From: Endomicrobiaceae bacterium
Lineage (GTDB): Bacteria; Elusimicrobiota; Endomicrobiia; Endomicrobiales; Endomicrobiaceae
Reading direction: 5' to 3'
Length of the DNA stretch: 50,374 nucleotides
Assembly: GCA_028711215.1 (NCBI GenBank)
Contig: JAQTSO010000007.1
Span: forward strand, 1-50,374
Both the position numbers and the translations under genes were made by a program. This document shows, one piece after another, positions 27,164 to 29,374 of the stretch. Every line of letters starts with the position of its first letter. Within the stretch, counting starts at the first letter, position 1. The notes under the pieces are model-generated. The model saw only the letters and a program-made list of their open reading frames with translations. It was not told where the DNA came from and made no database searches.

Positions 27164-27200
27164 AAAAAAAACAGCTCGCCTTTCAGGACGAGCTGTTTTT
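27164..27200 (-). terminator. Terminator after groL
   Basis: Arms AAAAACAGCTCG (27167-27178) and CGAGCTGTTTTT (27189-27200) form 12 pairs around a 10-base loop. On the minus strand the stem ends in an uninterrupted T tract. It separates groSL from the pheA operon. Confidence 0.85.
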
Positions 27201-27254: not shown

Positions 27255-28916
<1,662 letters not shown>

Positions 28917-28927
28917 TTAAAACTAAA

Positions 28928-29215
28928 TTATTCCAGTATTCCCAATACATCTTCCTGTGACATTATTAAATAGTCAACATTTTCAATTTTTATTTCTGTT
29001 CCCGCATATTTACCATATAAAACTTTATCGCCGACTTTAACATCCATATTAATTACTTTACCGTCTTTATCAGTTTTCCCTTTACCTACTGCAATAACTG
29101 AACCTTCTTGTGGTTTTTCCTTTACTGTATCCGGAATAATAATGCCTCCGATTTTCTTCTCTTTAGGTTCTTCAACCTTAACAATAATCCTGTCTCCTAA
29201 TGGTCTGATTTTCAT
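28928..29215 (-). CDS. groS: 10 kDa co-chaperonin GroES
   Basis: 95 aa from ATG 29215. The TTG at 29221 is rejected because it abuts the AGGAGGAG ribosome site, while 29215 is spaced correctly. Family motifs: [15 protein letters not shown], the mobile loop region [33 protein letters not shown] and the C-terminal ILE. It caps the GroEL ring. The leader carries one CIRCE close to the start, and a second copy lies further upstream. Confidence 0.97.
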
Positions 29216-29256
29216 TTGCAACTCCTCCTATTTTTTACTTTCTGTAATATTTTTAA

Positions 29257-29283
29257 TTAGCACTCATGCTAATTGATTGCCAA
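29257..29283 (-). promoter_or_regulatory. CIRCE operator, start-proximal copy
   Basis: Plus-strand reading: TTAGCACTC, 9-base spacer, GATTGCCAA. The first arm matches the CIRCE consensus (TTAGCACTC-N9-GAGTGCTAA) perfectly; the second has two mismatches. It begins at the last base of the proximal -10 box, where bound HrcA repressor would block transcription start. Confidence 0.8.
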
Positions 29284-29311
29284 TTATACATCAACTTTTA
29301 AAGTTTGTCAA
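29283..29311 (-). promoter_or_regulatory. groSL proximal promoter (perfect sigma-70)
   Basis: Minus strand TTGACA (29306-29311) and TATAAT (29283-29288), both exact consensus, with a 17-base spacer (29289-29305). Housekeeping-sigma control with HrcA repression is implied. Confidence 0.85.
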
Positions 29312-29318
29312 GTATTTT

Positions 29319-29345
29319 TAAGCACTCTTGATTAGCGGGTGCTAA
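29319..29345 (-). promoter_or_regulatory. CIRCE operator, distal copy
   Basis: Plus-strand reading: TAAGCACTC, 9-base spacer (29328-29336), GGGTGCTAA. Each arm has one mismatch to the consensus. It begins at the last base of the distal -10 box, the same geometry as the proximal copy 62 bases away. Confidence 0.8.
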
Positions 29346-29374
29346 TTATATAACAAGTTTTTAAAACTTGTCAA
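29345..29374 (-). promoter_or_regulatory. groSL distal promoter (perfect hexamers)
   Basis: Minus strand TTGACA (29369-29374) and TATAAT (29345-29350) with an 18-base spacer. It is the second copy of the promoter-CIRCE unit and begins only about 20 bases after the Nudix gene's stop. Confidence 0.8.

Follow-up and report, generated by a model that had tools for sequence, protein, structure and literature searches.

The HrcA/CIRCE system is among the most widespread heat-shock switches of bacteria and is usually drawn with one operator. The closest described systems are given here as they stand in the available portions of the cited papers. HrcA/CIRCE controls the groESL and dnaK operons, the class I heat-shock genes (PMC1676014). 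Two CIRCE elements overlap the promoter of the dnaK operon of Lactococcus lactis (PMC1676014), two lie upstream of hrcA in Lactobacillus plantarum (PMC3842655), and two lie upstream of dnaK and of clpB in Spiroplasma melliferum, whose CIRCE copies are mostly disrupted (PMC5138195). One CIRCE at dnaK and one at groESL are given in PMC3192767. A search of the open-licence literature on tandem promoters with CIRCE and groESL, and on multiple CIRCE, returned only PMC5138195, and a search of the same literature on CIRCE/HrcA of Elusimicrobia, or heat shock or groEL of Endomicrobium, returned no paper.

The window, which is the whole stretch of DNA analysed (50,374 nucleotides), is contig C31 of a 2.21-Mb draft genome labelled G000. 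The nearest named records to its GroEL were 'Candidatus Endomicrobium macrotermitis' (87%) and Endomicrobiia bacterium MS502-33 (83%), and the source organism therefore appears to be an Endomicrobium-like member of Elusimicrobiota. The features of the groS-groL region are listed below.

29369..29374 (read 29374-29369), minus strand: -35 box TTGACA of the distal promoter P1, exact consensus
29345..29350 (read 29350-29345), minus strand: -10 box TATAAT of P1, with an 18-base spacer from the P1 -35 box
29319..29345, minus strand: O1, the distal CIRCE, a predicted HrcA operator (pattern match)
29306..29311 (read 29311-29306), minus strand: -35 box TTGACA of the proximal promoter P2, exact consensus
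29283..29288 (read 29288-29283), minus strand: -10 box TATAAT of P2, with a 17-base spacer from the P2 -35 box
29257..29283, minus strand: O2, the proximal CIRCE, a predicted HrcA operator (pattern match)
29255..29274, minus strand: 8-bp inverted repeat AATTAGCA-TGAG-TGCTAATT inside O2 (from the sequence)
29224..29229, minus strand: ribosome-binding site AGGAGG of groS (from the sequence)
28928..29215, minus strand: groS (GroES), ATG at 29215; Cpn10, 118.3 bits (Pfam)
27255..28889, minus strand: groL (GroEL); Cpn60_TCP1, 267.2 bits (Pfam)
27167..27200, minus strand: terminator-like hairpin 3' of groL (consensus scan)

The preliminary description had placed two complete promoter-operator units ahead of groSL. 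Both were found, each with exact TTGACA and TATAAT hexamers and a CIRCE, and the positions, hexamers, spacers, arms and mismatches it gave were reproduced to the base on re-scanning. O1 reads TTAGCACCC-N9-GAGTGCTTA with one mismatch in each arm; its first base is the last base of the P1 -10 box and its end lies 7 bp above the P2 -35 box. O2 reads TTGGCAATC-N9-GAGTGCTAA with two mismatches in the left arm and none in the right, and its first base again coincides with the final base of a -10 box, here that of P2. The distance between O1 and O2 is 62 bp, the same as that between the -10 ends, and the -35 boxes are 63 bp apart.

The chance level of these motifs was estimated using the CIRCE consensus TTAGCACTC-N9-GAGTGCTAA with at most 3 mismatches. 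The window contained 2 matches, where 100 dinucleotide shuffles gave 0.01 on average, and the 2.21-Mb genome contained 4 sites against 0 for the reversed pattern, namely O1, O2, one before hrcA and one before clpB. The exact promoter TTGACA-N16-18-TATAAT occurred 30 times in the genome, compared to 8 for the reversed pattern, and in 3 of the 30 (P1, P2 and the hrcA promoter) a CIRCE lies on the last -10 base.

Like the class I systems, the groE region of G000 has a CIRCE with the 9-9-9 inverted repeat and its hrcA lies behind a CIRCE of its own; unlike them, groE has two promoter-operator units in series. The CIRCE begins inside the -10 box in G000, while that of L. plantarum groESL begins four bases after the transcription start (available text of PMC1676014). 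Two CIRCE at one heat-shock promoter, as at L. lactis dnaK, are seen at groE in the phylum and at hrcA in G000. This likeness is by description and not by sequence, and it differs in the gene, which is groE here, in the second complete promoter and in the phylum. A doubled CIRCE before a chaperone operon is shared also with L. plantarum hrcA and with S. melliferum dnaK and clpB, for which the available portions of the sources describe no tandem promoter pair, unlike G000 groE. Two promoter-CIRCE units before groES are found, as in G000, in the relatives G084/G085 and G025/G016/G022/G044/G017, but at 112-178 bp compared to 62 in G000, and on separate branches of the GroEL tree. The tandem arrangement at groE is a true, conserved and unusual variant of the familiar HrcA/CIRCE switch.

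Control of groE by HrcA/CIRCE had been taken in the preliminary description as well known, with absence of hrcA from the genome counting against it. One hrcA gene was found in G000 (contig C72; PF01628, 192.6 bits), with grpE following it. The presence of hrcA, together with a CIRCE at hrcA-grpE, which stands behind an exact promoter, and another at clpB, argues for this control of groE. Of the marks of the class I regulon, CIRCE, the groS-groL target and a sigma-70-type promoter were found at groE, and hrcA in the same genome. The gene read as clpB encodes a Clp ATPase (Clp_N, AAA); the CIRCE before it, at L005 1501-1527 (G000:C102), overlaps a TATACT -10 box and ends 15 bases before the start codon; because of this placement clpB of G000 is a likely HrcA target. 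Sigma-32 control of groE was also considered and was rejected, as no match above the RpoH cut-off was obtained in G000, the three weaker matches being to sigma factors. This result is consistent with HrcA as the main control. In the congener G074 an extra CIRCE was observed before an Hsp20 gene (L244 1501-1527, G074:C25), downstream of a MerR-family gene which is HspR-like by eye.

The distribution of hrcA was then compared with that of CIRCE. The gene was found in 80 of 95 genomes of the class and in 270 of 294 in the phylum sample. For 80 class upstreams, one shorter than 120 bases having been left out, both hrcA and CIRCE were present in 59, CIRCE only in 8, hrcA only in 8 and neither in 5. 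The association is moderate (Fisher p 0.03), and some of the genomes are incomplete. In family f10 both hrcA and the groES CIRCE were missing in 5 of 5 genomes. The HrcA matches of family f12 (G095, G098, G102, G104, G106, G108, G110 and G112) were very weak, with E values from 2.2e-6 to 1.5e-10 in these eight, and 5 of 5 sampled groES upstreams of this family had no CIRCE module, which suggests that HrcA or its site may have changed there.

The preferred reading, considered probable, is that groS-groL would form a heat-inducible region with P1 and P2 in series, each repressed by HrcA through its own CIRCE, P1-O1 being old and P2-O2 added by duplication. The motifs, their geometry, their retention in the congener and an hrcA gene in the genome are read directly from the sequences, and the mechanism beyond that level is drawn from the known HrcA/GroE feedback (available text of PMC1676014). 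P1 and P2 would be sigma-70-type promoters in which the predicted CIRCE covers the -10 box and the start region. Without heat stress HrcA would occupy O1 and O2, its activity being maintained by GroEL as described in other bacteria. Bound at O2 it would block P2 and also act as a roadblock to transcripts from P1, and bound at O1 it would block P1 and flank P2 from above. P2 would then be bracketed by two operators, like the single groE promoter of many members of the phylum. Heat would inactivate or release HrcA, P1 and P2 would both fire and groE output would be high. P2-O2 would have been added downstream of P1-O1, most likely through a local duplication that preceded the divergence of the two known species of the genus, and P1-O1 is taken as old because of its resemblance to the single modules of sister genera.

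The genus comparison covered two species, G000 and one congener, G074. Alignment with relatives had been proposed as a way of dating the doubling; both units are kept in G074 at the same positions as in G000, -130 (O1) and -68 (O2), so the doubling predates the split of the two species. The O1 arms are identical in both, while O2 of G074 carries three mismatches, and the arm that is perfect in G000 accounts for two of these. P1 is exact (12/12) in both species and all four hexamer pairs of the two genomes are exact. The exact spacing of the units is retained, though the spacer sequences differ.

Across the class, 81 groES upstreams were scored, of which 62 had one promoter-CIRCE module, 11 had two and 8 had none; the chance rate of a module was 15 in 4050 letter-shuffled class upstreams. 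Nine of the 11 are true tandems (G000, G074, G085, G084, G044, G025, G016, G022 and G017), the second copy of G017 being degenerate-looking. G069 and G067 were excluded, as their second module has a poor -35 box and 5 mismatches. Two CIRCE without a second good promoter were found in G088, G087, G011, G012 and G090. The distance between tandem units is 62 bp in G000/G074, 112 in G085, 116 in G084 and 140-178 bp in G044/G025/G016/G022/G017. A GroEL tree was made by a quick search without bootstrap for 67 of the 81 genomes with a groES upstream, those with a groL sequence available. Tandem modules fall in three of its branches; 4 changes are required to explain the two-module state, and branches with support of at least 95 force no fewer than 3 of them. 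These changes fit losses of the second module as well as gains, so that tandem doubling in the family recurs or is repeatedly lost. Separate gains appear the simpler reading since the unit distances differ between the branches.

This spread of distances over three branches would also suit added strength over fixed geometry. A real though lesser possibility is accordingly framed by dosage, in which two promoters would raise the maximum groE output and the operators would be carried along with no graded or cooperative logic. The exact spacing kept in the congener despite the changed spacer sequences speaks against it.

The preferred reading, with two HrcA-repressed units, further holds that the second unit came by duplication. 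The preliminary description had drawn this from the likeness of the spacers and from the identical geometry of the units. The likeness is real: outside the motifs the distal and proximal units of G000 are identical at 19 of 33 positions, compared to a shuffled mean of 11.1, a value reached by 0.25% of 20,000 shuffles. It is also modest, being equalled by the single module of G077, with which the proximal unit shares 20 of 33 positions. In G074 the two units agree at 14 of 33 (3.4% of shuffles). The geometry is a weak sign of duplication, since most CIRCE of the class are placed in this way, 62 of 81 matches beginning on the last -10 base and 11 more one base earlier. Tandem duplication stands as plausible, given the recurrence or repeated loss of tandems in the tree, while the sequence evidence within the genus is modest. 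P2-O2 likely arose by local duplication, though duplication is not demonstrated within this genus.

The single modules of G071, G072 and G077 were used for comparison of the two units. The distal unit of G000 matched them at 20, 23 and 23 of 33 positions, and the proximal unit at 12, 16 and 20; being closer to the sister genera, the distal unit probably represents the long-standing module of the family, to which the proximal one was added later. The corresponding counts in G074 were 15, 17 and 16 for the distal unit, lowered by its one-base-shorter spacer, and 9, 13 and 18 for the proximal unit, so which unit of G074 is older is less clear from the counts than in G000. In G085 the two units share 27 of 33 positions and its distal unit shares 26 with the G077 module. 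Duplication appears clearer in G025 than in the window genus, the two spacers and CIRCE sites of G025 being nearly identical. Of the 33 positions, the proximal unit of G000 shares 12-20 with the groE modules found in relatives and 11-12 with hrcA modules, among which a single row is displaced by one base; these counts tilt slightly towards a groE rather than an hrcA origin.

The weak likeness of the units within G000 and within G074 would fit a stepwise gain of a CIRCE and a promoter, perhaps from an older two-operator layout, and such layouts are common in the phylum, as described below. This origin of the second unit is doubtful, as the proximal unit is slightly nearer to groE than to hrcA modules and the near-identity of the two G025 units is a case of the opposite kind.

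The local duplication preferred above concerns the genus, and the wider phylum presented another form of doubling. The preliminary description is correct on the doubled CIRCE at this locus, but it had missed that a second CIRCE is widespread across the phylum, in most cases unaccompanied by a second promoter. Outside the class, the 77 rows listed, none of them from family f13, supplied 75 groES upstreams, all but G110 and G208 (near contig starts). With at most 4 mismatches, 45 of these had two CIRCE-like elements, 21 had one and 9 had none. The class and the rest of the phylum were pooled into 156 groE upstreams, 136 of them with a module. A second CIRCE 44-66 bp above that of the best module was found in 41 of the 156 and in none over 100 control passes, in which the DNA above the -35 box was shuffled and the promoter kept. 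When all modules were counted, which brought in G074 and two f18 genomes, 44 of the 156, from 44 different genomes, had a further CIRCE located 47-62 bp above that of the promoter, against 0.02 per pass in the shuffled control (50 passes, distances 30-69). The families are f16 (24), f21 (12), f1 (3), f22 (2), f18 (2) and f24 (1). The hrcA matches listed include 42 of these 44 genomes, all but G012 and G274. The layout is not universal, being present in 12 of 25 upstreams of f21 and in none of f14, f17, f19 and f25. In a broad set of 76 groES upstreams, which includes four Elusimicrobia (4 of 80 loci gave no usable upstream), 28 had no CIRCE, 47 had one and a single case, L058 from Clostridia, had two, 92 bp apart.

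The position of the upper CIRCE was analysed in relation to the promoter. It overlaps the -35 box in 39 of the 44, by 7 bases in 14 of 14 of f21 and f22, and by 1 base in 22 and 3 bases in 2 of the 24 in f16. Its offset to the -35 box is constant in f21 (-7 in 12 of 12) and is -1 in 22 and -3 in 2 of the 24 in f16. The operator distance follows the promoter spacer, with a correlation of 1.0 in f21 and 0.76 in f16; in these relatives each operator is thus fixed to its promoter hexamer and not to the other operator. The preliminary description had suggested that the two copies could give a graded or cooperative heat-shock output; such locking would lean mildly towards each operator blocking on its own and away from a phased, cooperative action. 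A cooperative arrangement with both operators on the same face of the helix was also considered, since the distances of 62 bp at groE and 52 bp at hrcA would correspond to roughly 6 and 5 turns, and was rejected: the commonest operator distances, 49 bp in f21 and 53 bp in f16, are about 0.4 turn apart, and with the distance tracking the spacer the helical phase is not conserved in relatives. In all 12 cases of f21 the left arm of the upper CIRCE shows at most 1 mismatch, and the right arm, with 3 or 4 mismatches in each case, is largely the -35 box itself, for which reason this element may be a half site. The arms in f16 have 0-2 and 1-3 mismatches.

The hrcA promoter of the window genome presents the compact form of this layout. 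In G000 (L004 1501-1579, G000:C72, minus strand) a degenerate upper CIRCE with 4 mismatches lies 52 bp above the main CIRCE, and its right arm enters the -35 box TTGACA with an overlap of 3. The hrcA promoter of G074 has the same form, with 3 mismatches in the upper CIRCE. Among 33 class hrcA loci only these two are compact and 14 are single; the other 17 had no scorable module under the rules used and are hence uninformative. At groE of G000 the upper CIRCE does not overlap the -35 box, O1 standing clear of that of P2.

From these layouts it is proposed, with belief and doubt evenly balanced, that groE of Elusimicrobiota would commonly be under two HrcA operators, each sharing letters with a promoter hexamer. 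One operator would have an arm in the -35 box (GATTGACA or GAGTGCTATTGACA) and the other CIRCE would start in the -10 box. HrcA would clamp both promoter ends by double occlusion and not as a phased complex, since the operators are locked to the hexamers. The window genus would have two serial promoters at groE and would keep the clamp at hrcA.

The same layouts bear on the role of P1. The functional unit at groE might be P2 alone, with O1 near its -35 box and O2 on its -10 box, P1 being secondary or incidental and O1 strengthening the repression of P2. The frequency of a second CIRCE without its own promoter agrees with this, as a promoter module at O1 was found in only 4 of the 44 upstreams (2 in f1 and 2 in f18), and so do the compact hrcA promoter of G000 and the genome G202, in which O1 lies at 61 bp and ends 6 bp above the -35 box with no promoter at O1. 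It is judged unlikely in the window genus, in which P1 is exact in both species, and the distal rather than the proximal unit of G000 is closer to the single modules of sister genera. That one of the two units is a non-functional, decaying copy is improbable, as the mismatches (two in each CIRCE of G000, three in O2 of G074) and the degenerate-looking tandem copy of G017 are set against exact hexamer pairs throughout and O1 arms identical in both species.

Repression of both serial promoters through their own operators is kept as the probable reading of this groE locus. Of greater interest than the tandem unit is the second operator, which recurs over much of the phylum sample, and the two-operator bracketing is a little-described variant of a well-known switch. 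The several geometries of the phylum, with -35 overlaps of 7, 3 or 1 bases or none, together with the tandem branches, form a natural comparison series. Such a series could be used to ask what the second operator brings, whether tighter repression, a steeper response or more output, and would provide an early view of how heat-shock genes are controlled in Elusimicrobiota. In G151 and G126 (L307 and L308, family f18) a strong promoter with a CIRCE was observed at about -154, with a second CIRCE 62 bp further down and only a weak promoter between them; transcription through the leader may there meet the lower operator as a roadblock.

The inverted repeat inside O2 was analysed as a possible, and speculative, 5'-terminal hairpin of the P2 transcript. 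The stem is retained in G074, where two A-U pairs are changed to G-C on both sides. In 75 distinct loops of class groES CIRCE, stems of at least 6 Watson-Crick pairs between N9 and the transcribed right arm numbered 5 against 0.55 in shuffles (fraction 0.003). For the left arm the long stems numbered 1 against 0.45, and the mean stem was slightly high (fraction 0.037). With one row per genus (23 rows) the median fraction was 0.01 for the right arm and 0.12 for the left, and when loops at least 5 letters apart were taken (17 rows) the right-arm pairing weakened (0.09). No such pairing was seen at class hrcA sites (15 loops), and in 45 loops from other phyla it was weak, with one long stem against 0.41 in shuffles and a fraction of 0.02 for the mean stem. 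It was not replicated in 99 loops from the remainder of the phylum, with long stems 1 against 0.38 (fraction 0.31) and mean stem fractions of 0.084 for the right and 0.032 for the left arm. A general mRNA 5' hairpin at groES CIRCE is retained as an observation only, as the signal was not replicated outside the class. Palindromic promoter spacers, the distal one a palindrome by eye and the proximal one 82% complementary, were rejected, not being kept in G074.

Overlapping CIRCE-like repeats were observed in G068 (L115) at -111 and -94 from groS, where three successive arms, TTAGCATTC, GAGTGCTAA and GAGTGCTAA, follow one another.
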